64,000 nt of DNA from Cafeteria roenbergensis (Eukaryota; Sar; Bigyra; Bicosoecida; Cafeteriaceae), in contig VLTN01000011.1 in the NCBI GenBank assembly GCA_008330645.1, forward strand, positions 248,001 to 312,000, given 5' to 3'. Position numbers and translations under genes: made by a program. Shown piece by piece: positions 13,934 through 61,424 of the stretch (position 1 is its first letter; each line of letters opens with the position of its first letter). The notes beneath the pieces are model-generated. The model saw only the letters and a program-made list of their open reading frames with translations, was not told the DNA's origin and did not search any database.

Positions 13934-14135
13934 TGCCTGTCAGGCGGGTCCTTCCAGCGTGTGGGACTGTTTGCGTGCCGCGCGCATGACCAACGTGCGG
14001 GAGAGCTGCGTCAGGCGAGGGCGGTTGCCGCAATGTCGAGCCCAACTCTGCTCACTCTGCGCTGTGCCTGGGCACAAGATTCCACTCGAGCGCGTGCACG
14101 CGCCGCAGCGCCAACTCTCGTGCTGGTTGGCGGCC

Positions 14136-17099: not shown

Positions 17100-17300
17100 T
17101 TGCATGCGTCGGAGTCTGTCGCTTTCCAAGTGCTGGCGTGCAGGGCGCTGCGTGATCTTGGTGTGCGACAAGCAATTGGGTGCCGTTCGCGCAGCGCTGC
17201 GAAACACCTCTCACTGCCGCCACACTGTGCCTCGCCCCGCGCCGCTGCAGCTCCTTGCTCCTCGAGGCCCGTCAGCGCTGGAGGGCAGGGGTGGTCGGGG

Positions 17301-20300
17301 ATGCCGCCAAAGCGCGGTCACCTGCCGCCAGTGCGCAACGGGTCGAGCCGCGCATCTGCCCGTCCCGGCACGGCCGAGTCCTCGCAGTCTCGCGTTTCAG
17401 CAAGCAGCCGCTTCGGCGCGGATAGCCGCCCCGGGACGCCGGCATGGGCGCGGGACGCGGCCCGGGTGCAAGCGTTCGACCAGGGCGGTATGGACAGCTT
17501 GCGGCAAGCATTCGCGCGCATCGAGCGGCCTAGCGGCGACACCATCACCATGGCCGACGCCCGCAGGCTAGCCGTCGCCAAGGCCGCTGCGTTGCAGGAA
17601 GAGGTTGACTTGGTAAACAGGCGCATCGCCCAGGACCTGCGGGAGGTCGGCATCAAGTGGCGGGCGGACGACCTCGACGACCAGCCCCAGGACGGTGACG
17701 AGGACGGAGACGCCGACGGCGACGACGGGGAGCTCGGTGGCGTCGGCCTGCCCAGTCAGGGAAGCGTTGCTGCCGGCAGCGAGGTGTCTGACAGGCAGGC
17801 CGCCCCTCGCGCCAGCCCGCAGCCGGCGTCGCCAGTCAGCGTGCGTGGTCCTGCAAGCGCGGCCGCCAGGCCAGAGTCGTCGGCCTCCCAGCGCAGCCTC
17901 GCGCCCAGTGTCAGCAATCCCGAGGCCGCTGCCCTGCTGCGGCTGCCCGTGACCCGGAAGCGCGACCAGCTGGAGCGCGACCGTGCGAATCTCGACAAGC
18001 TGCTTGAGGCTGCTGAGGCGCGCTCCGCCAAGCGCGCCTCCCGCCTGCAGTCCGTCACCGAGGCCGTGGAGCGGTCGCGGGCGCGCCAGCAGGCCGAGGC
18101 GCGGGACAGGCTGCGAGAGCAGCGGGCGGAACAATCCGGGAAATTGGCCCGAACGGCGGGGAAGAAGCCGGTCACGTCAAGCGGGGACTTCCCAGATGGC
18201 GTTCCGGCCGAAGTTATGGTGGACGCGCGAGCTCCAGGCAGCGCCGTTCACGGAGTGAGGCGCCTCCTGATGACGCACGAGGAGCGCGAGGAGGACAGCG
18301 CAGCGATGCGCGAGGAGGCGCTGGACCACTGGCAGGGGGCCGCCGGCGGCGCCGGCCGGATCGCCTCCGGCGCCAGGAAGCCCCGGCCCCTCTCTGCCGA
18401 CGAGGAGTCCAAGGCGAACCTCAGCGGCGTGGACATTAGCGCGTTCGGGGACGGGCTTGCCGCGCTGGAGAGCGGCGTGTCCGCTGCGCGCAAGACGTTC
18501 AAGACGCTTCTCGGAAAGCTCCGCACGGCGTTCGACAAGAAGGGCCAGGCGCAGCTCGCGGTGCTCCGGGCGGAAGTGGAGGCGGCAGAGGCGCGCATGG
18601 TGGAGTTGCAGAAGAAGCTGGGGCGGACGCGGCGGCAGGGCGAGGCGCTGGCCGCAGAGCTGCAGCGCCAGCGCACCGTCGCGGAGAACACACTGAAGCG
18701 GCTCAGGGCGGCGGTCGAGGCGTGCCAGGAGGCCGAGGCCGCCGCGCGGGAGGCCAAGGAGCTGCGGTTCGTGGCGGAGAGGGAGGCCGCGAGCGCCAAG
18801 GCGGACCTCACGGGGTCCATGGCGGAGACGGCGCGGCTGGAGGTCATGCTCAAGGGGGCGCAGGGGGAGGCGGAGCGGCTGCGGGAGATGGTCGCGGAGG
18901 CCGAGACGTCGGCGGCCGGCCGGCCGGGGAAGGAGGAGTGGGCGGCGTCGCAGCTGGAGGCGGCGCGGAACGAGGCGCGCACGCAGCGGCTGGAGGACGA
19001 CTTGAAGGAGGCGGCCAAGGCCAGGGCCGAGCTGGAGCGTACCGCCGTGGCCGAGAGACAGGAGGCCGCCCTCACCAAATCCAGGCTCGAGGGGCGCCTC
19101 AAGGACCTGCAGGACGATCTGCGGGAGGCGCGGGGCAGGGCGGAACAGGCGGTCACGGGCGGCGCTGGCGAGGTGCGCAAGGCCAAGGAGGCGGCAGAGC
19201 TGGCGGCGAAGGAGGCCAAGGAGGCGATTGCGAGGGCTGAGGCGGCCGAGGGCCAGACGGCAAAGCTCGCGCTCGCGCAGGCTGAGGCGGCCAAGGCGGC
19301 GCGGGAAGCGGCGGCCGCGCAGGAGGCGGCCAAGGCGGCCGAGGAGCGCGCCGAGGCGGCGACCCAGCGCGCGCTGGCGGCGGAGGAGAGGGCGGAGCTA
19401 GCCGGATCGCGGGCGCAGACGGCTGAGTCCAAGGCGCGGTCGGCTGACGAGGAGGCGGGGCGGCTGCGGTCGAGGCTGGGGGTGTCGGCTGCTGCTGCAG
19501 CTGAGGCGGAGGCGCTGCGCGAGGGCCTCCGCACGGCCGAGAAGGAGGCCGCGGAGGCCAAGGCCAGGGCGGCGCAGGCGGAGGCCCTCAGCAGCGAGGC
19601 CACCAGCGCGCGGGAGGAGGCTGCCGCGGAGCTTGCCAGGGCGGCAGAGCGCGCCGCGGCGGAGACGAGCCGTGTGAGCGCGGCGCTTCAGGCGGCGGAG
19701 GAGGCGGCGGCGGAGGCCGTGAGGGGGCAGGAGCGGGCTGCCAGGCGGGCGGAGGAGGCGGAGGCCAAGGCAGCTGCGGCGGAGCAGCGGGCCCAGACGG
19801 CGGTGGCTGAGGCGAGGCACGAGGCCGAGGCCAAGGCTGCGGCTGAGGCCAGGGCTGAGCAGGCGGAGGCTGCTGTCTCGGCGGCTCGGGAGCAGGCTGA
19901 TGCTGCCGCCGCCGCCGCTGCTGCTGCTACTGCTGCTTCATCGGCGACAGCCACCACGGAAGATACTTCAGCAGGGCGGAGCTCCGCCGAGCCAGCGACG
20001 GACGAGGCAGAGTCTCGGGCCGCTGCCTCACAGGGAGGGATGACGGGCGCCGCACGGTCCAGCGCGGAGTTCCAAGCGCGGCTCGTGGAGATCGACGAGC
20101 TGAAGGCAAGCTTGGCTGCGGCACAAGCGGCCGAGCACGCGAGCAAGGACGCGGCCGCGAAGCTGGAGTCCGCGCTGGCGGAGGCCGTGGCCGCCCGGGG
20201 GCAGGCCGAGGATGCCGCCAAGGAGGAGGAGCGGCTGCGACGGGAGGCCGAGGCAGCGCGGCGCCTCGATGCGGAGGCCGCGGCGGCGAGGGCCGAGGAG

Positions 20301-23300
20301 TCTGCTGCCGCCGGGCGGAAGGAGGCGACGGCAGCGGTCGTTGCAGAGGCGGCGAGTCTTCGGGCCAAGCTTGAGCTCGCGGAGGAGGGGGCGGGCGCCC
20401 TGCGGGCGCAGCTGGAGAGCGCCCAGGCGGCCGAGCGGCAGGCCGCTGACAGAGCGGCTCAGGCGGCGGCAGCAGCGACGCGCGCGGAGGACGAGGCCGC
20501 GGCGCTGCGGGACGAGGCTGAGGCGGCGCGGGCGGCGGAGGCTGCGGCCAAGGCGGCTGTCGACGCTGTCGCAGCGGGAAGCGACGGGTCCGGAGCGACG
20601 GGGGCCGCCAAGGCGCTTGTGAGGGCGCAGCGAGCAGCAGCGTCGGCGGCTCAGGCGGCGAGCTCTCGCGCGATTGCGGCTGCCAAGCGGGCCGACCAGG
20701 CCCGCGCCGACGCGGAGGAGGCAACCGCTGCTCTCACGGCGGCCAACGACGAGGCCAGGAAGCTGCGGGCGCGCCTCAGCCGCGTCGCGGCCGACCTCAG
20801 GCGGGCCGGGGAGGAGGCCCAGGCGGCCGCTGCGGAGCGGGACGCTGCCGAGCACGAGGTGAAGCACTGGCGACGGGAGGCCAGCGCGGCGCTGGCAGAG
20901 GCGGAGAGGCTCAAGATCGAGGTCAGCATCAATGCCGCCGCCGTGGCAGAGGCGGCCGCGGCCCGGGCCGCGCTTCGAGACGCGCGGCACAGGCTCGCTG
21001 CGGCGCAGTGGGCCGTTTCGCAGGAGCGAGTCGCGGAGCGCCGCGCGCGCGCCCAGTCTGCCTTCATGGGGCAGCAGCTGGCGCAGGCGCAGGAGGAGCT
21101 GCAGGCCACGCTCGAGGCCCTGGACGCCTCGCGGGAGCGAGGGGCGGCCCGAGAAGCCATGCTCGCCGACACGGCGGCCCGGTCGCGCGCCCTCGTGAGC
21201 AGGCTGAAGGACATGCTGGTCACCTCCATGACGAGCGCGGTGCACGCCGACGCTCGCGTGAGGGCGCTTGAGCAGGCCAGCGGCGGCTGGGAGGACGGCC
21301 CTCCGCAGGGGGTGCGGGGCACGCAACTGGTGGTGGTGGGCGACACGCCGCGGTCGCCCGTCAGGGCCGAGTCGCGCAACTCTCGCACCTGGAGGGCGCT
21401 GCACGCCGTGGCCGAGGCAGAGGCGGCGGCCATCCCCATGGGGGCGACCGTGCCACGCGTCGGCTCGTCCCGGGCAGGAGGGCGAGCCGCGGAGGCGCTG
21501 GTGGCAGCGTCACCCAGCCGCCCCTTGTCGCGCACTGCCCCAGCCGGCGCTGTGGCGTCGCTTGGCGCTGACGCGGCGCTGAGTGGCCGCCGGCCATCGA
21601 GCGCTGCGTCGGCGGCCGGCATGTCCTCTGCTGCCGCGCCCTGGGGAGACGCTCAGCCTGAGCCCGGCGCCGGCGGCTCGGCCACGGCCACGTCGCGGGG
21701 CGAGCTGGACCAGCAGCCGGCGGCGCGGCGCAGAGCACATGCAGCCGGGGCCAGCTCCTCAGCCAGGGCCCTCCGCTTCGGCGACGACGGCTTCGACGCC
21801 CCCGGCGCGGTGCTCCCCGTCGACGAGCCAGCAGCGGCATGCCGCCCATCGGACGGGGAGCGGTCCCAGGGTGCCGGCGGCAGGATCCCATCCAGCCCGC
21901 TCCGCGTGCCCGCCCCAGGCGACGGCTCCTCCGACGGTGGGCCGCGGTCTCCTGCGGAGACGCTGGAGCGGACGCCAGCGAGGCAGACGGGGCTGGGCGG
22001 TCGGGGCCGCGACGCCAACGCTGGGGCCGTGAGCACAGCCAGCCTGATGCGGGTCACGCATCGCCTGGGTGCCGGTGGGGGTGGCGGAAAGCAGGAGCGG
22101 TTTGGCAGAGCTGGGCGGAGCGCTGGGGTCGGAGCAATGCCCCGGCGCGGGCTGCAGCCCGCGGATGAGGCCGCTGTTAGCGACGCGGGCAGCGGCGCAG
22201 AAAGGGCCGACCCTCTGCCCGGCGGCTCAACGCGGCAGGGCCGGGCGGGCGCGACGTCGACGCCGCAGCTGTTTCCGCCGGCCAACCGCCGGGCGGGCGG
22301 CGAGTCCCGCATGTTTGCGGGGCTCGCAGCTGCAGCTGCCGCGGCAGCAGCTGCAACAGGTGCTGCTGCCGGAGAGGCAGGGGCAGGGGCAGAGGCGCGG
22401 GAGGGCGGTTCGGACACGGGAATCGCTCGCGGCCCGGCCGCAACGGGAGGAGCTTGGGGAGGCGGCTCCTTTGCCGCATCGCCAAGCAGGCTCCCAAGCC
22501 CTGCGCTGGTGTGGCCGGACGACCACCGCTACCCCAGCCGGGAAGCGGGACCGCTGTCCTCCTCGGCATCGCTCGAGCCTGCCTTGGATGACGTGGCGCT
22601 TGCACAGGAGGCGGCAGGGCTGGCGGCAGCCGCCACCGAGGGCGACAGGACCGCGATTCTCCAGCTGGTGGCGGCCCTCAGAGCGCAGGCGGTGGCAGCA
22701 GCGCGCCGTTCGGCGGAGCGGGGCCCGCGGCAGCGCCGGGCACAGGACGCCAGCGTCGGCCGGCCGGCAACGGCGGGGTCGCGGCCTGGCTCTGCCAGCT
22801 CCTCACGTCGAAGTGTCCAGCAGGCCAGGGAGGGACGGCACGGACTGGCGCGGCAAGGCGCTGCGGATGGGACGTTGAGGACCCTGCCGATGAACGGCGG
22901 GGCCAGCGACGAGCTGGCCCTGCGCTCCGCGGCGGAGCTCCGCGGTGCGCGGCAGGAGCTGGCCGCGATGCACAGCGTGGCGGCCATTGCGGCGGGGATG
23001 GGGGCTCCCCTCGTCGCAGGGGAGGCGGTGTTGGCCTCTCGCGCGAGGACGAGCGCCGCTGGCGGCGGCGGCGGCGGCGGCAGCGGTGGCGGCGGGAGCG
23101 TCGGGCTCGGTGGCGGGGCTACAGGCGCAGGGGCAGGGCCGGGAGCAGGGGATTCAGGGGCGCCGCTTCGGGCCATTGCCGCGGCGGAGGCCGTGACGCT
23201 ATCGCTGGACGGGGCAATTGCGTCCCTTGAGGCCAACCTGGGCGTGCTGCGCGCGGCTGACTCAGCGGCAGACAGCCGCCACGTCAGCTGGGGCGAGATG

Positions 23301-23918
23301 CGACGCAGGCTGGACGAGATGGCTACCAGAGGGCTGGTGCCGCTGCTACGGCTGCAAGCGCGCGCGCGGGGGGCCTCAGCCGCCGTGCTCGGCGCGTTCG
23401 TGCCGCTGCGCAGGCCCAAAGCGGCGTGGGCCCAGGCGGCCACAGCCGGAGCAACCGCAGACGCGGACGAGGCCATGGTCCTTGCGGACGCCGTGGCGAG
23501 CCGCCCGCCCGGCGCCCCCATCCCGCTTGCCGAGGCCCGCTCGGACACTGCCGACCCGCTGTGGGCGGCGGCTGGCGGCCGCGGCGCGGCAGGCCGTGGC
23601 GCGGCAGGCGGCGCCGCCGGCCGCGTGTTGGAGGGGAGCGACGACGATGAGCCAAGGGAGCGCGGGGCGGCGGAGGCTGCCCTCAGGCAAGCCGCCGCGG
23701 GCATCGGCCGCTCGGGCCCCTCGCTGTCCGGTCGGCGCGCAGGCGCGGTGCCGGCGTCGCTGCTGCGCAACCCAGAGCGCGGCACGGCAGCGGCCACAGC
23801 CGGGGCCAAGCCTGAGGCGCGCCCCTCCTCTGGGCGGCGCGTTCCGGCGAGCGTGGCCACTCCTCAGGCTGGGGGGGGAGCAGTGGCAAAGCGAAAGCCG
23901 ATTCGGTTCATCGAGTGA
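17301..23918 (+). CDS. Giant Ala/Glu-rich coiled-coil protein
   Basis: A single uninterrupted frame of 2,205 residues from the ATG at 17301 (MPPKRGHLPPV). The frame is open upstream as far as the preceding gene's stop but offers no ATG there. The N-terminal 220 residues are basic/Ser-rich and then acidic (DQPQDGDEDGDADGDD). From about residue 230 to 1310 nearly everything is heptad-like Ala/Glu/Arg/Lys, predicted long coiled coil, with ordered-looking stretches such as SGVSAARKTFKTLLGKLRTA near residue 400. The C-terminal 900 residues are disordered Ser/Gly/Ala/Pro with a Gly run and end in KRKPIRFIE. It lies 201 bp after the membrane-protein gene. No family can be named; cytoskeletal, centrosomal or flagellar scaffolds have this build. 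Such composition also arises from GCG/GAG repeats, so similarity to the other coiled-coil genes here need not mean common descent. Confidence 0.7.
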   Translation: MPPKRGHLPPVRNGSSRASARPGTAESSQSRVSASSRFGADSRPGTPAWARDAARVQAFDQGGMDSLRQAFARIERPSGDTITMADARRLAVAKAAALQEEVDLVNRRIAQDLREVGIKWRADDLDDQPQDGDEDGDADGDDGELGGVGLPSQGSVAAGSEVSDRQAAPRASPQPASPVSVRGPASAAARPESSASQRSLAPSVSNPEAAALLRLPVTRKRDQLERDRANLDKLLEAAEARSAKRASRLQSVTEAVERSRARQQAEARDRLREQRAEQSGKLARTAGKKPVTSSGDFPDGVPAEVMVDARAPGSAVHGVRRLLMTHEEREEDSAAMREEALDHWQGAAGGAGRIASGARKPRPLSADEESKANLSGVDISAFGDGLAALESGVSAARKTFKTLLGKLRTAFDKKGQAQLAVLRAEVEAAEARMVELQKKLGRTRRQGEALAAELQRQRTVAENTLKRLRAAVEACQEAEAAAREAKELRFVAEREAASAKADLTGSMAETARLEVMLKGAQGEAERLREMVAEAETSAAGRPGKEEWAASQLEAARNEARTQRLEDDLKEAAKARAELERTAVAERQEAALTKSRLEGRLKDLQDDLREARGRAEQAVTGGAGEVRKAKEAAELAAKEAKEAIARAEAAEGQTAKLALAQAEAAKAAREAAAAQEAAKAAEERAEAATQRALAAEERAELAGSRAQTAESKARSADEEAGRLRSRLGVSAAAAAEAEALREGLRTAEKEAAEAKARAAQAEALSSEATSAREEAAAELARAAERAAAETSRVSAALQAAEEAAAEAVRGQERAARRAEEAEAKAAAAEQRAQTAVAEARHEAEAKAAAEARAEQAEAAVSAAREQADAAAAAAAAATAASSATATTEDTSAGRSSAEPATDEAESRAAASQGGMTGAARSSAEFQARLVEIDELKASLAAAQAAEHASKDAAAKLESALAEAVAARGQAEDAAKEEERLRREAEAARRLDAEAAAARAEESAAAGRKEATAAVVAEAASLRAKLELAEEGAGALRAQLESAQAAERQAADRAAQAAAAATRAEDEAAALRDEAEAARAAEAAAKAAVDAVAAGSDGSGATGAAKALVRAQRAAASAAQAASSRAIAAAKRADQARADAEEATAALTAANDEARKLRARLSRVAADLRRAGEEAQAAAAERDAAEHEVKHWRREASAALAEAERLKIEVSINAAAVAEAAAARAALRDARHRLAAAQWAVSQERVAERRARAQSAFMGQQLAQAQEELQATLEALDASRERGAAREAMLADTAARSRALVSRLKDMLVTSMTSAVHADARVRALEQASGGWEDGPPQGVRGTQLVVVGDTPRSPVRAESRNSRTWRALHAVAEAEAAAIPMGATVPRVGSSRAGGRAAEALVAASPSRPLSRTAPAGAVASLGADAALSGRRPSSAASAAGMSSAAAPWGDAQPEPGAGGSATATSRGELDQQPAARRRAHAAGASSSARALRFGDDGFDAPGAVLPVDEPAAACRPSDGERSQGAGGRIPSSPLRVPAPGDGSSDGGPRSPAETLERTPARQTGLGGRGRDANAGAVSTASLMRVTHRLGAGGGGGKQERFGRAGRSAGVGAMPRRGLQPADEAAVSDAGSGAERADPLPGGSTRQGRAGATSTPQLFPPANRRAGGESRMFAGLAAAAAAAAAATGAAAGEAGAGAEAREGGSDTGIARGPAATGGAWGGGSFAASPSRLPSPALVWPDDHRYPSREAGPLSSSASLEPALDDVALAQEAAGLAAAATEGDRTAILQLVAALRAQAVAAARRSAERGPRQRRAQDASVGRPATAGSRPGSASSSRRSVQQAREGRHGLARQGAADGTLRTLPMNGGASDELALRSAAELRGARQELAAMHSVAAIAAGMGAPLVAGEAVLASRARTSAAGGGGGGGSGGGGSVGLGGGATGAGAGPGAGDSGAPLRAIAAAEAVTLSLDGAIASLEANLGVLRAADSAADSRHVSWGEMRRRLDEMATRGLVPLLRLQARARGASAAVLGAFVPLRRPKAAWAQAATAGATADADEAMVLADAVASRPPGAPIPLAEARSDTADPLWAAAGGRGAAGRGAAGGAAGRVLEGSDDDEPRERGAAEAALRQAAAGIGRSGPSLSGRRAGAVPASLLRNPERGTAAATAGAKPEARPSSGRRVPASVATPQAGGGAVAKRKPIRFIE

Positions 23919-24848: not shown

Positions 24849-27800
24849 ATGTCAAGCGGCCCACGAAACGACTCCGCTGTGGAGGGCGTCTCCAGCAGCG
24901 ATTCGGCCCCTCGCCTGAGCCTGGGATCACCCTCGGGCAGCCGCGACGGGCGGGCGCTGTCGGCTTCTCTTCGGAGCAACCCGGACGTGACCAGCGATAA
25001 CGCAGCAAGCGAGGCCTTTGTCGACGAGCTTTTCGCCGGAGCCAGTATGGCTCTCAGTGAGGCCGGCCTCCTTGACCGCCCTGCGGGCTTTCCGGCTCCT
25101 GCAACCGACGACCACGCCATGCGCGGCCGCAGCATGGACGACCTGCCGTCCCACCGCTTGCGCACCGGCAACTCGTCCACCGGGCGCCCCACTGCCGCCA
25201 GCATGAGCGGCGTGCTCCACGGGGCGGGCGCCGGCCGCGTTTCGGCTGACCACCTGGCCCCGCCTGGGCTGGGCTTCTCCCCGCACAGCCGGCCGCAGCA
25301 GGGAGCCGACCAGCGCTGGGCCGGCGGCTCCCTTGACGCCCTCCCAACCTCCGCGTCGCCCTCGATTCAGGGCGCAATGGGCAGCTCCTCATTCACGGCG
25401 GGAGCCACGGCTGCGCGGTCCGGCTCCATGGCCGCAGGCATGGAGCGGCGAGCGAGCAATGTGGCCGCCCTCGGCCCGCGCGCCTCCGTGTCGAAGGCGT
25501 ACGCCGTTCTGGGCATGCAGATGCCGTCCCCCAAGGTCGTGCAAGCTCCCGACCAGACGGATGCCCAAATCCGAGCGTCGCTCGGGATTGAGCGACGCTC
25601 GCCCCGCTCGGGCCCCGTGGACAGCCGCCACTCCCCCAAAGGCCCGCGCAGCCCCGAGGCATCTCGGCCCTCCGCCCCCCTCGTGCACCCCCACGTGCGG
25701 GCCTGGGGCTCCGCTGCCAAGTCCGCCCTCGGCCGGCCCTCCTCCGCCAGCTGGGCGGGGTCGGGGGGCGCCGGCCGCTCCCCCCACGCCGCGTCCACCC
25801 CCCGTATGTCCAGCGACGTTGCTTCGCGCTTCGCGTCGCTCTCGTCGGTGCCAGAGGCCGAAGGCCCCGAGGGCGCCGCCGCTGCCGAGGCAGCCGACGC
25901 GGCCGCCGCCGCCGCCGCTGCCGGCGGCTTCTCGGAACGCCAGCAGCCCGTGGACGCGCCGCCGCAGCCCGTGATAGCGTCCTCCCACTCCCCGCGCTCG
26001 TCGGGGCACGCGCCCGTAGGCCGGCCCGGGGACTCCTGGCGCCACCACCGCCAGTCGGCCTCCAGCGCCGTGGACGGCGCCACCCGCGCGGGCCGCCTCC
26101 CGGGCGGCAGGGCATCCGTCGCCGCCTCTGAGCTGCCCCCCTCCCGGGACTACGGCGCTTCCCCAGACACCGCCTCCCCTGCTCCGGGCTCCAGCATGTC
26201 CTGGCGCCACGGCGCCGTGCCCGGCGTTCCCCGCTCCGCCAGCGCCGCTCCGGTTCTGGGCGTGTCCGCAGCGGGTGCCACGCTTCCCCGCTGGTCCATG
26301 GGGGGAGACTCGTCCTCCCGCGGCGATGGCAGCGGTGGCGACCACGAAGCCGGCGCCGCCTCTCAGCGCGTGAGCGACGCTGCCGGAGCCGGTCACGCAG
26401 TTGCGCGGGCGGTGGACGCTGCGCTTGGCGGCTTGCTCGCCCACCGCGGCGGCCAGCCCAGCCTCCGGCGCCAGGCTGCCCCCCCCGAGGAGCCAGACCT
26501 GCCGCTGTCCTCGCCCATCGGCGTGCAAATCGTGGACGTCGGCTGGCGGGCAACTGGAACCGGCACCTCGGGCCACGTCGTCTTCCTCCTCGAAGTGACC
26601 ACTGGCGTGCGCGCTTGGCACCTCCAGCGCCGCTTCAGCGAGTTCGCGGCGCTGCACCGCTGCCTGGAAGCTGCGGTTGCGGCTGACGCGGCCATTGCCT
26701 CCCGCATCGAGCTGCCCCGCTTCCCGTCCCGAGAGGTCGTCCGGACTGCCGTTCAGGGCGCGGCAGCCCTCGGTCACGAGCGCAAATCCCTTCTCCAGGC
26801 GTACCTCAACAGCGTGGTGCGACGCCCAGAGCTGTGGGCCGCGTGCGATGAGCTGGTGTTCTTCCTCGACGACCGCAGGCGCACGCTGTCCCTGCAGGTG
26901 GCGCTCCGCCGCCTCCTCCGCACGCTTGGCGCCGTGACCGACGTGCTCGAGCAAGCCACCGAGGCGTGGGAGGAGGTCCAGGCTGCCAAGCGCGCTGGCA
27001 GGTCGGCCAACCTGGACGCTCACGACGAGGAGACGATGCAGCAGCGCGTGGTTGCGGCCGACAAGGAGCGCACGCGGATCCTCGTGCGGGTCAAGGCCGT
27101 GTCGGAGGCCATCGCAGCGCAGGCCCTCGTCACGCTGGGTGGCCCGGCCAGGCACGCCGTGCCCCCGCCGGCTGACGGCGGCAAGCAGCACTCCTCCGGC
27201 TCGGCTGCGGCTGCGGCTGCGGCTGCCGGCGGCGGGTCCGCAGCGCCTGCTCCAGCTGCCGCCTCGGCGAAAGGCAAGTCGTCGGCTGGCAAGGGCGGCG
27301 CTGGCCAGGACGACGCCAGTGCCGGGGCCGAAGCAGCCCCAGATGCGGAGGGTGCATCCAAGACGGCATCGCCCTCGCGGCCCAAGGGGGCGACGGCCGC
27401 AGCGCTGGAGCTCCGCAGCGATCAGACTGCCGGTGGGTGGGGAGCCAAAACCGACTCGGGCGCCGCGTCTGGCCACAGCGGCGGCGGGGGCGGCGCCTCG
27501 CTCGCCAACGCATCTGTGGCCCTTCGCCGGGCGGTCTTGACGGTGGAGCGGCAGGCACTGGTGGCAGCAGGCCGCTCTGCAGAGGGCACATCGGCGGTCC
27601 TGTCGCCAGAGACCCTTCGCGACATCTCGGCCTCGGCCCGCCTCCTTGTCCGCACGGCGCGCCACCTCGCGCTGCGCTGCGGCATGGATGCGCCGGCAGC
27701 CGGGGCAGCCGCCGGTCCCGCCGAGGAGAGCTCTGCCCCCAACGGTGCCAAGCGGCTCTCCGACCGGTCCAACGGGGCTGTGCCCAGCGCCGCATCTGCG

Positions 27801-30800
27801 CAGCACGCAGCAGCAGCAGCGTCAGCAGCAGCCGCTGCGGCGCCGGCGGGCTCTGTCCCCGGCTCCGGCTCCGGGGGCGATTTGCCTGAGCGGCAGAAGC
27901 AGCGGCAGCTTCTCAACGAGCTGCTGCGGATGGACGGGGCTTCCTCGCGCATGGGGCCCGGGTCGCCGTTCAGGCAGCTGCTCGACGCCTCGGACGAGCT
28001 CGCGTCGGCGCTGGTCACAACAGGCGCGGCCCGGGCTCGCAGGGCCGAGATCATGCTCCTCACACGGCGACTGGTGCGGGACGCAATCGGGTGCGAGGCG
28101 GCTGCGACAGCCTCGTCGGCGTCGCTCACGTACGGGCCGAGCTCGCCGATTGAAATGACTGCGGTTGTGCCGTCAACGTCCTCGCTGTCCTCTGCCTGGT
28201 TCACCTCCCTCACCGAGTACACCGCCCGCGTCGCAGCCACCCACCAGCGCGTCGCGCGCTCGGTGGCCCGGGAGGAGCACAGGACGCAGCGGCGGGTCGC
28301 GGCAGAGCGCGCCTCTGAGCGCATGGCAGGGCGGCTGTCCGTCCCGGTGGAAGGCTCCGAGGGCGACTCCGACGACGGTGCCCCCACGCCCAAGCCCGCG
28401 CGCCAGGCCCCCTCGCTTGCCAACATGGGGGCCCAGCCCCGCACGTACGCGTCCGGCGTTCCGTCGTACTTGATGGGCCCGGACGAGCCCAGGCAGGGCC
28501 GCAGTGCGGCGGCGCCCCACCGCCCAAGGGGCGCGATCGGAAAGGACTCCAAGCTGGCTGGCGCCGGAGCGCCGAGTGGCGAGCACGACTCGCAGCTGGC
28601 GCTGCTGGCACTGCAGCGCGCGGCTGTTCGGCGGAAGGAAACGCCGCAGGACTTGCTGGCGCGCGCACCCTTGTCCAGATCCGACGCGCCCGATGGCGAC
28701 GGCGACGAGAGCGCCGCCCCCAGCCTAGCAACCAGCGCAGACGACAGGCCCGACGTGACGTGGGAGTCGGGTCGGGACGGCCCTCCCGGCGGGGCCTTTG
28801 CGTCGCGGCAGGCGCTCACCGCAGGAGTAGCGGCAGCCAGCGAGGCCTCGAGCGGCAGCGTGGGATTGGGCATGGGCAGCCGCTCGAAGCGGCCGTCCCT
28901 GCGCTCCGAGCGGGGCAGCTACTCGTCCCGCGGCGGGGGCATGTACGACGGCGATGGCAGCAGCAGCGCGGGCGGCGGGTTTGACGCCGGCGCCCGCCTT
29001 GGCGCGCGCTCCATCGACAGCGACGGGCTGGCCGGGTTCGGGCTCGATGCGGCCTCCTCCACTGCCACCAGCGGCGCCGGGGACGGCGCAGCGGCGGACA
29101 TCGGGTCGCTCCCCGGGTGGATGTTCGCCCGTGATGGACACCTGATGCTCATCCGAAACGCGGGCTTCGTTCCGGAGGTGTCCTTGCGGCTGGCCGGGGA
29201 GCCGGACGGCGAGGGCGAAACGCCTCGCGAGGGCGAGGCAGCGGCCGGCCGCAGCGGCGGGCGGTCTCCCAGCGCTGGATCGCTCAGGTCACGCGGCAGC
29301 GCTGGGTCCAGGTGGCGGCGGAGCCAGCGCCGCTCCCTGGGCAGCTCCCCGGACCTCTCAGTGCTCGCCACCGCCGAGGATGCCATCCTGGCGGCGGTGA
29401 CCGGCCCTGTCGTGCGCTGGCGCGTGGACAACACCCTGGTCGAGCTTCGCGCCAACGACTGGCACGGCGTGGCCATGGCTCGCTGGGTTGAGCACATGGA
29501 CCGCCAGACAGACTCGGCGGTCATGGCACTCTGGGAGGCCAAGGCCAGCGAGGCGCGCATGGGAGCGACGATCAATGCCAAGAAACGCGCCGCCGAGGCC
29601 CGCGCCGCCGCTCGGCGCGAGGGCCGGGACCCGGCGGCGGCAGCGGCGGCGGTGCTCTCCGGAGCCGACGCAGACGAGTACTTGCCCGGCCTGCCCCCGC
29701 GGCCGCAGGCGCACCTGCTCAAGCGGTCGTTCGTCCTGCTCCGCTCGTGGCTGGAAATCGACACCCGGGGTCTGGAGGAGGACGGCACTCCCGCTCCGTC
29801 GGCTGCGCAGCCGAGCCCTCCGGACCAGCCTGAGCGCCGGCCTCGGCGCGGCCCGATGCTCGGCGCTCAGGCCACGTGCGTCCCCCACGACGTCCTTGCC
29901 GTCATGATCGCGGGCATCTTGGCCGAGAGCATGCAGCAGGTCCGGGACGACGAGGAGGCCAGGCAGGAGCGCCGCCGCTCCACCTCCTTCTCCGCGGGCG
30001 GCGGTGGCGACAAGCGGCCCGCCGCGCAGGCCGTCCCTCGCCGCGTGGGCGGCCTCGGCCTGCTCACCCACCCCCTGCAGGTGGTGGCCGCCGTGGCGAC
30101 CCGATTCGGCCGCGGCTTGGCGGCCGCCTTGCTCACTGGCTCTGCAGTGGTGACGGCGGACGGCCCCGTCGACCTTGGCACGTACCGTGCCTGGCTGCGC
30201 GGCACTCCCGTGGCGCGCCAGCCGCCCGACGTTGACGCGTGGTCGGCGCACTTGCGCGAGTTTTCCGCCGGCTGCGACCTGGCAGAGCGGCGCGCCAGGC
30301 AGGCTGCGCAGGCAGCCAGCGACGGGCTCGCCCCTCGCGCCGTTCTCCCCACTGGCGTGGGCGTGCCCACCGCGGCCCAGCCCCGCGACGGCCTGGTCCC
30401 CGACGACCTGCTTCGCGACGCCTTGGACGCCTTCCGCCCTCCCCCGCCGCCGCCCCCGGGGGCGGACCCCAACGAGGATGCCACGCTCCTGGTCGTGTCG
30501 CCGGTGGCCCCGTGGCGCAACCTCTCCGCGGCCGCGAGCCCGCTGCTGGCAACGTCCTTCTTGCTCTGCCTAAGGGGCGCCGCCCGGCGCATCGTGCTGG
30601 GCCTGGAGCGCGCAGAGGCCAGGCACACGGCACAGACCGCCTCAGCGCCGGACCTCGGAGAACCCCCCGCGTCGGATGACCCCGTGGTCGCGGCTGGGTC
30701 GGGCGACGCCGACTCCGTTGCCTCGCCCAGCGTGCCGCCGACCGCCTCCCCGGGAGTCTCCTCAGCCGGCGCCAGCCCGGCGCTCAACGCCTCGGCCGTG

Positions 30801-33560
30801 GCCAGCAAGGCCCTGTCCCCCGCCAGCACCGGCGACTCTCCCCCGCCCAGCCCCGGGATCCTGCCCAGGCTTGACGCCGACGCCACGTCCGCCCGCGCTG
30901 GCAGCGGGTCCCGCCTCGCTCGCCACTCGTCGGCCTCCTCCATGTCTGCGGGCGCTCGGCGGGACCTGGCACGGAGCCTGTTTGGCCCCCGGCTTGTCGA
31001 GTCGACCCCGCTGGACGAGACGAGGCGGCCAGATCTGCGCACCCACCCGCTGCAGCGGCGCGCTGCCGTGGCCTTTGAGACCTTCAGCCCGTCTGCCTCA
31101 ACCTGCCCGCGCCCGGATGTGCCCGACGACGCAGACGACATCGCACCCGCGGACAAGCGGCCGAGGCCAGCCCCTGTCAAGGACCTGCCGCTGCTGGCCC
31201 TCACGGGCATCCACCACGACGGCCGCTCCCTCCACCCGCTCACGCACATCCCGCAGTTCCCAGCCGACCACCCGTTCCACGCCTACCGCAGCGCCGCGCT
31301 GGAGGCACGCGAGGCGGAATCGATGCTGGACCAGATGCGAGCGTCTGGCGAGCCAATTGCCGACGACGGCTCAGCAGTCACTGCCGTGTTCGGCGGCCGC
31401 ACCGCTGCAGCCCTCTCGCTCATCCGGCAGGTCAAGGTCCGCGTGGCGGCGATGCCCCCCACGCCGCTTCCCGCCTCGCTCCTTGACCCGCAATGCCGCT
31501 CCGCGCTCCATGACGACTCGCCCGACTTCATCACCCTCACCGTGGCACAAGCCATCGCTGCCACGATGATGAGGGGGCCCCGCTCCGCGCTAACCCACCC
31601 CGTGTTCGGGGACGGCCTGCGCGCCAGCGCGGAGGAGGCGCTCCGGACGGACGCAGACGAGCCGGGCGCCGGGCCTTCCAAGGGCCGCTCGTCGCGGTCG
31701 CGCCGCCGGCCGGCGCAGGCCACCAAGGGCCGCGCCGCCGTGCTCAACCCGGAGGCTGACTGGTGGCGCACGCACGAGGACGCCGCTGGCGTAGGCGTGC
31801 GCCTCTTCCTGCTCTCCCACGCCTCCGCGATCGATGCTCTCTCCAAGGGGGTGGCTCTGCCGACTCCCTCCCCGCTGCCAGCGAGACCGCTGCAGGCCAC
31901 GGACTCGCTCATCGACAGCGACATCGACATGCTCTGGACAGTTATGACTGGCAGGCTCACGGTGGGAGGCATCATCTCCATCCTCTACCGGGAGCTCCGC
32001 TGGACAGGCCACCTCAGCATTGCCCAGCTCGGGAAGGCGCTTCGCACCGCCTCAGGCTGGTCCCATCTCCCTGACAAGGTCAAGGACCGCTTGGGGGGCC
32101 TCAAGCGCTTCATCACGCGCTTCCCCGCCGCCTTCCACGTCGGCTTCAACCACCCTTTCAACCCCCAGGTGTGCCTGCGCGACAGCGTGGGCGTCTTCCT
32201 CTGGATCTCCATGGAGCCAGACGAGGCCACTGCCGTCGGCTTGGCCAAGGTCACCTCCAAGAAGAAGAGCCGAGGCAAGGGGAAGAACAAGGGCCACGCC
32301 GGGGCCGCTGATGCGGGATCCGTCCACACGGGCTCGGGCTTTGCTGGCGGGCGGGACACCCCCAGCTCGCGTGACACCTCGGCTGACCACGGCCCGCCAC
32401 AGCGCTACGCTGGGCCAGACTCGGCTGCCGGGCGCTTCGGATTCGGTCCGGGCCCCGCGCCCTTCACCGGACGAAGCCCCGCGCCTGGCATGTCAATCCG
32501 CGTGCCAGCATCCGCGCGCCCCGGCCAGCCCGCGGCGGCGCCGTATGCAGGGCCAGGGGGCGACGCAAGGGCGGGATATCCCGGGCGCCAGGGGGCGCCG
32601 CCAGCGTACCGCCCCGGGGGTTATTTGCCCCCGGGTGCCCGTGAACAGCAGCAGCAGCAGCAGCAGCAGCAGCCTCCGCCACAGTATTATGGCGAGGGCG
32701 GCTCTGCTCACTCCGGGCACCGCGGCTACGCTCCTGGCGGCTTCGTCCCGCCGCACGGCCGTTCAGACTACGGCCCGCCGCCGGACGGCGGCTTTGCGCC
32801 CCACCGCGGCCCACATGGCCACGACCCCCGCGCGGCTGTCCGCTACCCGCATCACGACCCGTACGCCGGCCCTGCTCGCGGGCCGGGCCCAGAGCCGAGG
32901 GCGTCGGCTCAGCACTATGGCAGGGCGGGCTACTCCAACTACGGCCCCGCGGCACCCCACGGGCACCCCCCCCAACACCCCCAGGCACAGCAGCGCCCCC
33001 ACCACCACCCGATGGACGCAGCCGAATACCGTGGCGGCAGGCCAGAGGCCGCCCACGCCGCTGCGCCGCCGCACAGTCCAGCGTACGGTGCTGCGCAGCC
33101 CGCCTACGGCTTCGCCTCCGCCGTGTACTCTGTGCCCCATTCCGCCGCCTACGGGGCCTCCGACGTCATCGTCGTCCCGTCCCCTGACGATGTGGTCAGC
33201 CCGCTGCCTGCGCCGTTGCCCCCCCCGCACCATGGCGAGCAGCAGCCCTTCTCCCCGCCGACGCCGCTTCCCCCCACTCCGCGCCTGGACCCCCACGGCG
33301 GAGGCGAGTTTGCTCTCCCGCAGGCTGCCGTCTCTGCGCACCAGCAAGCCATGCCCCCCGCTTCGGCGGCGCCTTCCTACCACTACATGGCTGCGCCGAC
33401 GTCCGCTGCGCCGGCTTCTGCGGCGCAGCCGGCGGGGCCAACGTCCAACCTCCCACCAGCCCCCCCTGGGTCTGTGTACCTGTACACGGCCGACGGCACG
33501 CCGCTCTTGGTCAGCGCAGCGGCCCTCACGGCGCTTGCGACTGGCCAGCGGCCTGGGTGA
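24849..33560 (+). CDS. Giant protein with PX, nucleotidyltransferase-like and LOTUS-like regions
   Basis: One 8.7-kb open frame, 2,903 residues, starting at ATG 24849. Residues 1-540 are Ser/Pro/Arg-rich and disordered. A PX phosphoinositide-binding domain spans about 555-676: VVFLLEVTTG, WHLQRRFSEFAALHRCL, then LPRFPS and LLQAYLNSVV, with the Arg-Arg-Phe-Ser-Glu-Phe core intact. At about 1515-1785 the pattern VDNTLVEL, HLLKRSFVLLRSWLEIDTRG, VPHDVLAVMIAGIL, HPLQVVAAVATRFG and ADGPVDLGTY matches the PAP/OAS1 substrate-binding half of nucleotidyltransferases; no catalytic Gly-Ser/Asp-x-Asp motif is visible before it. At about 2370-2455, GGIISILYRELRWTGHLSIA, then GGLKRFITRFPAAFHVG and HPFNPQV, resembles a LOTUS/OST-HTH RNA-binding fold. 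A Lys/Arg patch follows, then a Gly/Pro/Tyr/Gln tail with nine Gln, like RNA-granule proteins. A role linking membranes to RNA is inference. Confidence 0.7.
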   Translation: MSSGPRNDSAVEGVSSSDSAPRLSLGSPSGSRDGRALSASLRSNPDVTSDNAASEAFVDELFAGASMALSEAGLLDRPAGFPAPATDDHAMRGRSMDDLPSHRLRTGNSSTGRPTAASMSGVLHGAGAGRVSADHLAPPGLGFSPHSRPQQGADQRWAGGSLDALPTSASPSIQGAMGSSSFTAGATAARSGSMAAGMERRASNVAALGPRASVSKAYAVLGMQMPSPKVVQAPDQTDAQIRASLGIERRSPRSGPVDSRHSPKGPRSPEASRPSAPLVHPHVRAWGSAAKSALGRPSSASWAGSGGAGRSPHAASTPRMSSDVASRFASLSSVPEAEGPEGAAAAEAADAAAAAAAAGGFSERQQPVDAPPQPVIASSHSPRSSGHAPVGRPGDSWRHHRQSASSAVDGATRAGRLPGGRASVAASELPPSRDYGASPDTASPAPGSSMSWRHGAVPGVPRSASAAPVLGVSAAGATLPRWSMGGDSSSRGDGSGGDHEAGAASQRVSDAAGAGHAVARAVDAALGGLLAHRGGQPSLRRQAAPPEEPDLPLSSPIGVQIVDVGWRATGTGTSGHVVFLLEVTTGVRAWHLQRRFSEFAALHRCLEAAVAADAAIASRIELPRFPSREVVRTAVQGAAALGHERKSLLQAYLNSVVRRPELWAACDELVFFLDDRRRTLSLQVALRRLLRTLGAVTDVLEQATEAWEEVQAAKRAGRSANLDAHDEETMQQRVVAADKERTRILVRVKAVSEAIAAQALVTLGGPARHAVPPPADGGKQHSSGSAAAAAAAAGGGSAAPAPAAASAKGKSSAGKGGAGQDDASAGAEAAPDAEGASKTASPSRPKGATAAALELRSDQTAGGWGAKTDSGAASGHSGGGGGASLANASVALRRAVLTVERQALVAAGRSAEGTSAVLSPETLRDISASARLLVRTARHLALRCGMDAPAAGAAAGPAEESSAPNGAKRLSDRSNGAVPSAASAQHAAAAASAAAAAAPAGSVPGSGSGGDLPERQKQRQLLNELLRMDGASSRMGPGSPFRQLLDASDELASALVTTGAARARRAEIMLLTRRLVRDAIGCEAAATASSASLTYGPSSPIEMTAVVPSTSSLSSAWFTSLTEYTARVAATHQRVARSVAREEHRTQRRVAAERASERMAGRLSVPVEGSEGDSDDGAPTPKPARQAPSLANMGAQPRTYASGVPSYLMGPDEPRQGRSAAAPHRPRGAIGKDSKLAGAGAPSGEHDSQLALLALQRAAVRRKETPQDLLARAPLSRSDAPDGDGDESAAPSLATSADDRPDVTWESGRDGPPGGAFASRQALTAGVAAASEASSGSVGLGMGSRSKRPSLRSERGSYSSRGGGMYDGDGSSSAGGGFDAGARLGARSIDSDGLAGFGLDAASSTATSGAGDGAAADIGSLPGWMFARDGHLMLIRNAGFVPEVSLRLAGEPDGEGETPREGEAAAGRSGGRSPSAGSLRSRGSAGSRWRRSQRRSLGSSPDLSVLATAEDAILAAVTGPVVRWRVDNTLVELRANDWHGVAMARWVEHMDRQTDSAVMALWEAKASEARMGATINAKKRAAEARAAARREGRDPAAAAAAVLSGADADEYLPGLPPRPQAHLLKRSFVLLRSWLEIDTRGLEEDGTPAPSAAQPSPPDQPERRPRRGPMLGAQATCVPHDVLAVMIAGILAESMQQVRDDEEARQERRRSTSFSAGGGGDKRPAAQAVPRRVGGLGLLTHPLQVVAAVATRFGRGLAAALLTGSAVVTADGPVDLGTYRAWLRGTPVARQPPDVDAWSAHLREFSAGCDLAERRARQAAQAASDGLAPRAVLPTGVGVPTAAQPRDGLVPDDLLRDALDAFRPPPPPPPGADPNEDATLLVVSPVAPWRNLSAAASPLLATSFLLCLRGAARRIVLGLERAEARHTAQTASAPDLGEPPASDDPVVAAGSGDADSVASPSVPPTASPGVSSAGASPALNASAVASKALSPASTGDSPPPSPGILPRLDADATSARAGSGSRLARHSSASSMSAGARRDLARSLFGPRLVESTPLDETRRPDLRTHPLQRRAAVAFETFSPSASTCPRPDVPDDADDIAPADKRPRPAPVKDLPLLALTGIHHDGRSLHPLTHIPQFPADHPFHAYRSAALEAREAESMLDQMRASGEPIADDGSAVTAVFGGRTAAALSLIRQVKVRVAAMPPTPLPASLLDPQCRSALHDDSPDFITLTVAQAIAATMMRGPRSALTHPVFGDGLRASAEEALRTDADEPGAGPSKGRSSRSRRRPAQATKGRAAVLNPEADWWRTHEDAAGVGVRLFLLSHASAIDALSKGVALPTPSPLPARPLQATDSLIDSDIDMLWTVMTGRLTVGGIISILYRELRWTGHLSIAQLGKALRTASGWSHLPDKVKDRLGGLKRFITRFPAAFHVGFNHPFNPQVCLRDSVGVFLWISMEPDEATAVGLAKVTSKKKSRGKGKNKGHAGAADAGSVHTGSGFAGGRDTPSSRDTSADHGPPQRYAGPDSAAGRFGFGPGPAPFTGRSPAPGMSIRVPASARPGQPAAAPYAGPGGDARAGYPGRQGAPPAYRPGGYLPPGAREQQQQQQQQQPPPQYYGEGGSAHSGHRGYAPGGFVPPHGRSDYGPPPDGGFAPHRGPHGHDPRAAVRYPHHDPYAGPARGPGPEPRASAQHYGRAGYSNYGPAAPHGHPPQHPQAQQRPHHHPMDAAEYRGGRPEAAHAAAPPHSPAYGAAQPAYGFASAVYSVPHSAAYGASDVIVVPSPDDVVSPLPAPLPPPHHGEQQPFSPPTPLPPTPRLDPHGGGEFALPQAAVSAHQQAMPPASAAPSYHYMAAPTSAAPASAAQPAGPTSNLPPAPPGSVYLYTADGTPLLVSAAALTALATGQRPG
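32646..32672 (+). repeat. CAG trinucleotide run encoding nine glutamines
   Basis: Nine perfect CAG codons within the disordered C-terminal tail of the PX gene, followed by Pro-Pro-Pro-Gln-Tyr-Tyr. Confidence 0.95.
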
Positions 33561-33820
33561 ACCGCTTGCCCTCTGCATTCCTTCGACTGGTGCGTCTGAG
33601 TTTTGGGTCTGCGATACCATCAGCCGCCTGGGTAGCTGCAGCCTTGCGCGCCTCGGTCACTGATGCGCGCTCCGCGCACCTTGCTGGCTTGCTCTGGCAG
33701 GCCGCCTGTGTGACCTGCGCGACCGGCCTCGATTGCGCACCACAACATGCTTGCTCCGACCACATATGCCGGCGATTGCGACACGCAGACCCGAATCAAA
33801 CCGGGAAGCAATCGGGCGAG

Positions 33821-35707: not shown

Positions 35708-35872
35708 GCAGGCGGAGGTGGACAGCACCCCAGCTCGAGCCGCGACCGCAGCGGCCAGCCTCTAACATGCTCCGCACGAACAGTGCCACTCTGCAGGGCG
35801 GTTGCGAGTCCGTGTTTTCCACGTGCTGGGGGTAGCACCAGATGGGTCGCGTTGCAAGCAAAACTCGGCTTC
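35542..35872. repeat. Pair of 19-bp direct repeats
   Basis: The 19-mer GCAAGCAAAACTCGGCTTC occurs at 35542-35560, inside the gene that ends at 33821, and again at 35854-35872, in its upstream region. Read on the - strand both would encode Glu-Ala-Glu-Phe-Cys-Leu. It could be a duplicated exon end, a regulatory motif or chance. Confidence 0.6.
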
Positions 35873-36220
35873 ACGCAACGAGCTCACGTGAAACAGCTCG
35901 GGGGCGTCGGAGGACACTGCAGTGCACTGAGGCCTTGCAACTGCACGCATCGAATCGCGCCGCAATGCCCCTGCGGCCTGCGCGGCCAACGGGCGGTCGG
36001 CCAGTGATCGCAATGCTTGCAACGCGGCTGAGGCCGGCGCCGCTGCTCTGCCGCGGCGACCGCAAAACGCTCTGCCCTCGCCGGCCAGCGCGTGGACGCG
36101 TGATTGAGGCGACATTGCCGGCAGCTGGACCTGGCGTCCTGGGCGCGAGCGCGTTTTGGCTGCGCCCTTGGCTTGCACGTCGCGCACCAATTCGGGTTGC
36201 CCAAGCAGCACTCGCACGGC
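35708..36220. other. Spacer between two minus-strand genes
   Basis: Contains the 3' UTR of the GDT1 gene and the promoter of the gene ending at 33821. An open - frame with an ATG near 36120 (MSPQSRVHALAGEG) runs to a GTGAGC donor-like site at about 35892 and could be a 5' exon of the downstream gene, but no in-phase acceptor was found. Confidence 0.35.
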
Positions 36221-37799
36221 CTACGCGTCCGGACCGGCCCAGAGCGAATGCACCGCGAACGCGAGGAAGAGCACGCCGCCGACGATCAGCACGGCCCGCT
36301 CGCTGATACGCGTGGCGAGAAGCTTGCCACCCAGCACGGCAAGGCCAGTGCAGAGGGCATGGCCAATGAGGCCGCCGACGCAGACGCCAAGCGGGTCCTT
36401 GGCTGCGCCCATGGCAATCGTGGCGATTTGCGAGCGGTCCCCCCACTCGGCCACGAATGTCATGGTGAAGGTCGTCGCCAGAACGGCAAAGGCAGACATA
36501 GGCACGGCCGAGCGTGTCTGGCTGGCTCCAGCGGTGCCCTGTGAAGAGCTGAAGGCGCGCCGCTGCACGGTGCTCGGAGACACCATGCCAGTCTCTTCGT
36601 CGTCGTCGTCGGGGCTGCGAAAAAGCTTCAATGCGGACAGAATCGCAAGCAGCGCAGCTGGAGCCGCGCAGAGCACGGGCGAGAGGCGCAGAGAGGGATG
36701 CGGCGGCAGCGCGCAGCGAGAGGCCCCTCTGCCGCGCGAGCATGGCATGCAATGGGCCAAGGTGAATGCAGTGCCCCAACGCACCTGGCAGCGTCCTCCT
36801 TCTTGTCGTTGTCCTTCGAAAGCTCCTCCTCGGCCTCCTCCAGGCCCTCCGACGCGTCAGAGCCGGCGGTGCGCGCGTCCCACAGCAGCTGGACGCCGAA
36901 GAACAGAAACTGCGGCGCGAGGGGCGGGCGGACGGCGGGGCCGCCGCACCAGCGAGAGTAGCGGGAGGGGGGTGGACGAAGGCGCGAGCGCCACGGGGAG
37001 CGACGCGACGCGGCGACGCGCGCACAGCGCTGCGGGAGGGGGGCCTCACCATCGCAATGGCTGCGTAGTGGGTGTAGATGCGGGGCAGCAGCGACGGCAG
37101 GGCAAAGCCGATGCCGACTGACAACACGTGCATGAGGCCGAGCGCCCCAATTGCAGCGATAAACACGGTGGAACGCGGGTGGCGCATGGCCATCAGCGCG
37201 GCCAGGAAGAACGTCTTGTCGCCAAGCTCGGTCACAATGATCATGACGAGGCTGTGAACAAACGCGCCCCAGAACGTATGGCCCGAACCGAGCTTGGACA
37301 CGCCCGCCTGCGACCACAGAAACGGGAGCGTCCGCCTCTCGGGGCGTGCACACTCGAACTGGGAATGCGAGCGCTGCGGCAGGCCTTCGGTTCAACGACT
37401 GCAGTGTGTGGCCACAGCAGCGGGTGTGGAGCGAATGCAGCAGCGCATCCTCACCATGATGCCGTCCACCCCGGCTGTGTGCTCGATGCTCGCGAACTCC
37501 TGGCGGTTCAACAAGCCGTCGTGGTTCTTGTCGAGCTTGTCAAAGGCGGCCGTGACTTCGGGCTCGGGGGCTTTGCCGGCGCTCCCATCGCGGCCGTGCG
37601 CCACAGCAGGCGCAGAGGTCGAGGCCGCCTTCTTGGGAAGCGCGAGAACGCCCGGGGGGCTGCTCGACTTGCTCGCGCCGCGCGGAGGGGTGCGCCGCTC
37701 ATCGGGAACCTCGCTTGGCGAGTTGTGCCATGGCCATTCCGCTGAGGCTCCGGCCACAAGGGCCGCTGCTGCCAGCACGAACAAAGGTCCGACCCGCAT
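36221..37799 (-). CDS. GDT1/TMEM165 (UPF0016) cation transporter with an N-terminal EF hand
   Basis: GDT1-family proteins move Ca2+/Mn2+ (with H+ exchange proposed) across Golgi or plastid membranes. Four exons: 37799-37455, 37307-37050, 36909-36785 and 36614-36221 (phases 0, 0, 2), giving 373 residues. A signal peptide, MRVGPLFVLAAAALVAGASA, is followed by a disordered linker and a canonical EF-hand loop, D90-K-N92-H-D94-G-L-L-N-R-Q-E101. The transporter has both signature repeats, ELGDKT at 142-147 and EWGDRS at 299-304. About six hydrophobic segments are arranged three and three around an acidic linker (EEAEEELSKDNDKKED, then SPDDDDEETG). The last acceptor, CTTTTTCGCAG, fits phase and places that linker correctly. 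TMEM165 and yeast Gdt1 lack an EF hand; a calcium-sensing lumenal domain is inferred. It is divergent from the UBAC2-like gene, with 250 bp between start codons. Confidence 0.88.
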
Positions 37800-61212: not shown

Positions 61213-61424
61213 CCTGCGCGGCACGGGGAGCCTCCGAGAACAATGTGCCGGCTTTCGCCACGTGCCAATGCGGCTGCCGGCCTGCTTGTCCTGCCGCGGC
61301 GCGCCGCGGCAGAGCTCGTGCGGCTTTGCTCGTCGTCCGTCGCCCAAGTCGCTGGCCAGCAGCCGCGTGATTGAGCATCGCACGCCCTCTCCGGCGCCGA
61401 GACGTGTGGTCGGCGGGAAGGGCC
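61213..61424. promoter_or_regulatory. 212-bp head-to-head promoter
   Basis: Separates the POP4 start codon from that of the coiled-coil gene leaving the window. It must serve both; no TATA-like element is seen. Confidence 0.55.

Follow-up and report, generated by a model that had tools for sequence, protein, structure and literature searches.

Reading frame and domain architecture

The analysed window is a 64,000-nucleotide stretch of the Cafeteria roenbergensis genome (C11:248001-312000) with a G + C content of 72.7%. Its central feature is a forward-strand open reading frame for a giant protein with a PX domain, a putative nucleotidyltransferase-like middle region and a predicted LOTUS-like winged helix, arranged in this order (Table 1). 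The same three-block order is present in a second gene on contig C6. Genome searches covered 36,303,456 bases in 167 contigs.

The initial annotation had described a single frame of 2,903 residues, and this description holds: the frame is open from ATG over 2,903 codons and ranks first of six frames by codon usage in 27 of 29 hundred-codon windows, including 25 of 25 up to residue 2500. Codon usage was trained on five long frames elsewhere in the genome, one of them the C6 paralog. Both misses fall in the tail, within residues 2501-2700. When synonymous codons were compared among the three forward frames (seventy-five-codon windows, residue 2300 onward), frame +0 was top in 6 of 8 windows and frame +1 in the two starting at residues 2525 and 2675, so the choice between these two frames is undecided in part of the tail. 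Overlapping the tail is another open frame, 547 codons long (32020-33663, forward strand, frame +1 relative to the main frame). Scans of the window for Rfam families, tRNAs and telomere repeats found nothing.

Table 1. Features of the 2,903-codon frame; positions are those of the window.
Feature	Position	Strand	Evidence
Open reading frame, 2,903 codons, ATG to stop	24849..33560	+	Frame search, codon usage
PX domain, residues 586-674	26604..26870	+	Pfam PF00787
Nucleotidyltransferase-like first hairpin, IGSLPGWMFARDGHLMLI.., residues 1418-1446	29100..29186	+	Local alignment, MAFFT alignment
Nucleotidyltransferase-like palm end, VVRWRVDNTLVELRAND.., residues 1505-1553	29361..29507	+	Paralog blastp, hhalign
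Substrate-binding-like helices, KRSFVLLRSWLE, HDVLAVMIAGIL, HPLQVVAAV, DGPVDL, residues 1618-1790	29700..30218	+	Alignments
Possible last PAP-associated block, TLLVVSPVAPWRNL..LRGAARRIVLGL, residues 1876-1926	30474..30626	+	By-eye alignment to plant-type consensus
LOTUS-like winged helix, residues 2369-2445	31953..32183	+	Paralog match, model, fold matches
Basic stretch C-terminal of the LOTUS-like domain, KKKSRGKGKNKGH, residues 2464-2487	32238..32309	+	Net charge
Pro/Ala/Gly/Tyr/Gln-rich tail, residues 2490-2903; reading frame less certain in first half	32316..33557	+	

Paralogous gene

When the genome was searched with the LOTUS-like segment, a single match other than the segment itself appeared (C6:492888-493136, E 1.7e-7). 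It lies within an open frame of 3,925 codons, which also carries a PX domain (C6:499449-499697, 56.1 bits in the PX family search). Read from its first methionine (codon 25 of the open frame), the paralog has 3,901 residues. By blastp the two proteins align in three collinear blocks, namely PX (E 4.9e-7), a 31-residue nucleotidyltransferase-like block (VVRWRVDNTLVELRAND../VLRLRVDGIAVTVTAND.., E 0.022) and, third, the LOTUS-like block (E 4.6e-9). One further match (E 8.7) breaks this order and is regarded as noise. With high confidence the architecture is common to two genes. That it recurs in a gene elsewhere makes a frame open by chance, or a fusion of genes, less likely. The middle region alone finds only itself in the genome and is thus the most diverged part. 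With the LOTUS-like segment as query, none of the large frames on C20 and C5 (PX) or on C9, C41 and C8 (nucleotidyltransferase) is matched at E up to 10.

PX domain

The PX domain scores 41 bits with its Pfam profile (E 2.9e-10, cut-off 21.6) and matches the designed CISK-PX in a PDB sequence search (E 1.4e-4). In the profile search of the genome, with 15 PX places listed, it scores 45.5 bits and that of the paralog 56.1 bits. The PX core claimed earlier is borne out, and the assignment, made from sequence, is of high confidence. RRF (594-596), FPSR (625-628) and ER (644-645) are kept; we take them to be lipid-contact residues. Binding of phosphoinositides by the domain is plausible. The PX core with the usual arginines, whose role is presumed, is common to the window protein and to sorting nexins and CISK. 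Unlike sorting nexins, the window protein shows no second nexin-type domain in Pfam (E up to 1) and has RNA-type blocks instead. Apart from PX, Pfam gave sub-cut-off matches only, for the whole protein (E up to 1) and for segments (E up to 10): AIMA-like_N and Phage_TAC_11, with AlkZ-like on the paralog and IFRD on the spliced paralog.

Predicted LOTUS-like winged helix and C-terminal tail

AlphaFold2, run with the paralog as second row, gave a best model of five with a mean predicted local distance difference test (pLDDT) of 70.2 (others 56.2, 52.9, 41.6 and 39.8). After a low-confidence first helix the predicted order is helix, strand, helix, helix, helix, strand, strand. An additional helix precedes the recognition helix in the model; such a helix distinguishes Egl domains from canonical winged helices (PMC13186709). 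Foldseek gave nothing below E 0.001. Among the matches listed, the TDRD7 LOTUS domain has the top probability (0.93, root-mean-square deviation 2.4, E 0.32) and the Tejas LOTUS domain the top template-modelling score by target (0.73, E 1.2). VIA-align of the Foldseek candidates scored TDRD5 at 9.4, Tejas 9.3, an uncultured marine protein 9.2, TDRD7 8.9 and Egalitarian 8.4, with RosR and a protein of African swine fever virus at 8.3 each and forkhead at 8.1. Of the top 10 rows, 7 are LOTUS-type chains, Egalitarian included.

LOTUS-type chains lead without clean separation, and the Pfam OST-HTH profile (PF12872) matches neither the window segment nor the paralog segment at E up to 10. The OST-HTH search of the genome gave one weak place elsewhere (14.8 bits, cut-off 23.8). 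The paralog segment has a weak AlkZ-like match (16.1 bits, cut-off 25.9), and a PDB sequence search with the LOTUS-like pair returned nothing relevant. Of the resemblance to LOTUS domains first proposed, the winged helix and its mostly LOTUS-type best matches stand at the level of predicted structure, but profile membership does not. Confidence in a LOTUS-like winged helix is fair. The domain may bind RNA or a Vasa-type helicase.

The basic stretch, ~20 residues behind the LOTUS-like domain, has a net charge of +8 and is one of three tied most basic 24-residue stretches. The most basic 24 residues of the paralog (net +13) are at residue 2931, ~180 residues behind its LOTUS-like domain. The tail is probably disordered. 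Residues 2450-2903 contain 18% Pro, 17% Ala, 14% Gly, 5.7% Gln and 5.1% Tyr. Pro, Ala and Gly are thus the commonest residues of this tail, first described as Gln/Tyr/Gly; Tyr makes up 0.5% of the rest of the protein, and the tail of the paralog is not Tyr-rich (0.3%).

Nucleotidyltransferase-like middle region

The comparison sequence is a plant PAP/OAS1-type consensus, not a database record. It is recognized as PAP_assoc by Pfam (25.6 bits, cut-off 22.6) and matches Cid1 structures (E 1.7e-5), and so behaves as a member of the fold. Local alignment with tolerance for gaps gives it scores of 68.1 on the window protein, across the hairpin, palm end and KRSF helix, and 66.3 on the paralog. Neither score was reached by any of 2000 shuffles (window region: mean 35.3, standard deviation 5.2, highest 62.9; paralog: highest 62.1). 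The background comprised 423 windows drawn from 258 further frames of either strand, and one of them exceeds both scores (78.7; next 54.8); its frame has PF22600 and PF03828 matches and is a terminal nucleotidyltransferase by Pfam. By hhalign the spliced pair aligns with the plant consensus over 85 columns, from the palm end to the HDVL helix (P 3.5e-6; on repetition 3.3e-6, with 0.097 for the best of 200 shuffles and 0.28 for the reversed sequence). The profile of the spliced pair gave no significant alignment with three nucleotidyltransferases of the genome (P 0.69, 0.35 and 0.40).

The blocks differ in support. The hairpin forms two strands in a low-confidence model. The KRSF helix is found by local alignment and hhalign, the HDVL helix by hhalign. 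HPLQ and DGPVDL are weaker because they align in MAFFT of spliced pieces only. The last PAP-associated block is weakest, being aligned to the paralog but, in that MAFFT alignment, not to the plant end.

The initial annotation had claimed agreement with PAP/OAS1 enzymes in order and spacing. The motifs it quoted start at residues 1625, 1680 and 1741, and its LOTUS-like motif at residue 2416. Order is upheld against the plant consensus for the palm end and the first two substrate-binding helices; spacing is not kept, the motifs being 55 and 61 residues apart versus roughly 27 and 20 in the plant consensus, by eye. In the plant-type sequence, as in the window protein, the hairpin is followed by the palm end, then by the KRSxxLxxxW helix and the next helix; the window protein differs by large insertions, other spacing, apparent loss of acids, and fusion to PX and a winged helix.

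Several results weigh against a nucleotidyltransferase origin. PF22600 and PF03828 do not match the middle region at E up to 10; in the genome they match at 7 and 3 places, neither paralogous gene among them. Searched against PDB sequences, neither the middle region singly nor the spliced pair gave a relevant match. The plant consensus has no match in the genome at E up to 10, and with it or part of it scans of viral contigs and of genome contigs and a phage tblastn found no relative. The predicted fold of residues 1415-1934 is poor (pLDDT 47.5, predicted template-modelling score 0.29) and has no structural match at E 0.001 (best E 5.4); MAFFT placed the paralog fragments poorly on the gapped region, so this fold was run with almost no alignment depth. 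The hhalign segments were spliced by the analyst with the expected motif order in mind.

The plant GS..DGDIDL hairpin aligns locally to GSLPGWMFARDGHLML, with GS kept. The DxD positions read H1431-L-M1433 and the third acid position E1532. In the paralog the hairpin is LPGDGVSL by MAFFT alignment, with G-V-S at the DxD positions, and T stands at the third acid position in local alignment. The catalytic DxD with a third acidic residue is found in neither gene. Owing to these replacements both copies look inactive. The resemblance reaches beyond the substrate-binding half noted first into the catalytic half, where, as the initial annotation suspected of a dead enzyme, all three acid positions appear replaced in the alignment to the plant consensus. 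Confidence in a dead nucleotidyltransferase origin, loss of the catalytic acids included, is moderate.

A palm stretch matching PF22600 (27.7 bits, cut-off 27) was observed at C9:89162-89356 within a 3,924-residue Ala/Gly/Ser-rich frame; giant, insertion-rich frames are thus present elsewhere in the genome.

Comparison with known systems

Proteins with OST-HTH are fused to many RNA modules and also to lipid-associated ones, namely an inactive SGNH hydrolase in Oskar and, in stramenopiles, MORN repeats (PMC2848206); in the available text of that source PX is not mentioned among the fusion partners. In Oskar a LOTUS-type winged helix stands next to a dead enzyme domain for which lipid binding has been proposed (PMC2848206). 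The window protein would resemble this RNA-granule scaffold in its predicted winged helix, its putative dead enzyme and its proposed scaffold role. Oskar differs in that the window protein, from a protist, has PX as the lipid module, a nucleotidyltransferase-like candidate for the dead enzyme and no OST-HTH profile match. Egalitarian combines LOTUS-like Egl domains with an exonuclease-homology domain and acts in mRNA localisation. It differs in having three winged helices, a fold of the exonuclease type and a link to dynein, and the available text on it does not mention a PX domain. In open-licence literature no paper was found that pairs PX with a LOTUS domain, with OST-HTH, with both nucleotidyltransferase and LOTUS domain, or with noncanonical poly A polymerase, and none of the further papers recognized by title or opening of the abstract describes the combination. 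The initial annotation knew of no family that has it. Scans of viral contigs with the domains of the window protein found no relative.

Alternative explanations

Fusion of two or more genes, or introns within the frame, would place the domains in different proteins. The species averages 1.67-1.89 introns per gene (PMC6972860), and the partly ambiguous tail points the same way; both weigh against a single protein. Nevertheless, with the block order repeated in one open frame of a second gene and one frame favoured throughout residues 1-2500, this explanation is very improbable. An active terminal nucleotidyltransferase with unusual active-site residues could account for the retained GS and for E1532 in the window gene, but H-L-M and G-V-S in place of DxD, and T at the third acid position of the paralog, leave it scarcely any likelihood. 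The active enzyme was rejected because the acids are lost in both genes.

Chance likeness in Ala/Leu/Val-rich helices would reduce the protein to a scaffold of PX and winged helix. The failure of Pfam, PDB and fold searches, a comparison sequence that is no database record and the spliced hhalign segments speak for it. The unspliced alignment, unreached by shuffles in both genes, the single higher background window, itself with Pfam nucleotidyltransferase matches, and the palm block common to both paralogs speak against it, and it is considered unlikely. A membrane-sorting protein, in which a generic winged helix serves protein contacts as in ESCRT-II and the nucleotidyltransferase remnant is structural only, would have no RNA role. 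It is opposed by the prevalence of LOTUS-type and Egalitarian chains among the top rows, by the Egl-type additional helix (PMC13186709) and by the remnant itself, which, if real, points to RNA; it is a minority possibility, though one to be taken seriously.

Neighbouring reading frames

Open frames at 17100-23918 (forward strand, 2,272 codons) and 40102-48468 (reverse strand, 2,788 codons) have no Pfam match at E 0.01 and could be either real genes or GC-driven frames. In 12711-14306 (forward strand) an aldo/keto reductase piece (66.6 bits) covers profile positions 128-235 of 291 only, so introns are likely in this neighbour. One GDT1 repeat (59.6 bits) lies in 35871-37301 (reverse strand). 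An RNase P/MRP p29-like stretch, just below the cut-off (26.9 bits, cut-off 27), lies near the end of the frame at 60085-62775 (reverse strand).

Proposed function and significance

The two paralogous giant proteins of this bacterivorous flagellate are proposed to be non-catalytic RNA scaffolds on phosphoinositide membranes, a reading given somewhat less than an even chance. PX would dock on endosomal or phagosomal membrane of the phosphatidylinositol 3-phosphate type, as suggested by family knowledge. The divergent plant-type nucleotidyltransferase module, whose origin and loss of metal-binding acids are suggested by significant alignment to the plant consensus, would at most bind RNA, nucleotide or a partner. 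The winged helix, LOTUS-like by structure prediction, and the basic stretch behind it may hold RNA or an RNA helicase. Long low-complexity segments could contribute condensate-type contacts. For this function overall, from membrane recruitment and lipid binding to RNA handling and scaffolding, confidence is low to moderate. A more specific proposal, that PX, a dead plant-type nucleotidyltransferase and a LOTUS-like helix define an undescribed bicosoecid family of giant, mostly disordered scaffolds tethering ribonucleoprotein granules to endosomes or phagosomes, is tentative and more doubtful.

If true, this would be a separate origin of membrane-anchored RNA localisation, independent of animal germ granules and of fungal endosomal mRNA transport. 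Animal proteins that pair LOTUS-type with enzyme-like domains, such as Oskar and Egalitarian, serve to organise or carry RNA. If a free-living stramenopile uses this design together with a domain that binds lipid directly, the design would seem to be older or to arise repeatedly, and a cultured protist would offer a two-gene system in which to test RNA on membranes.
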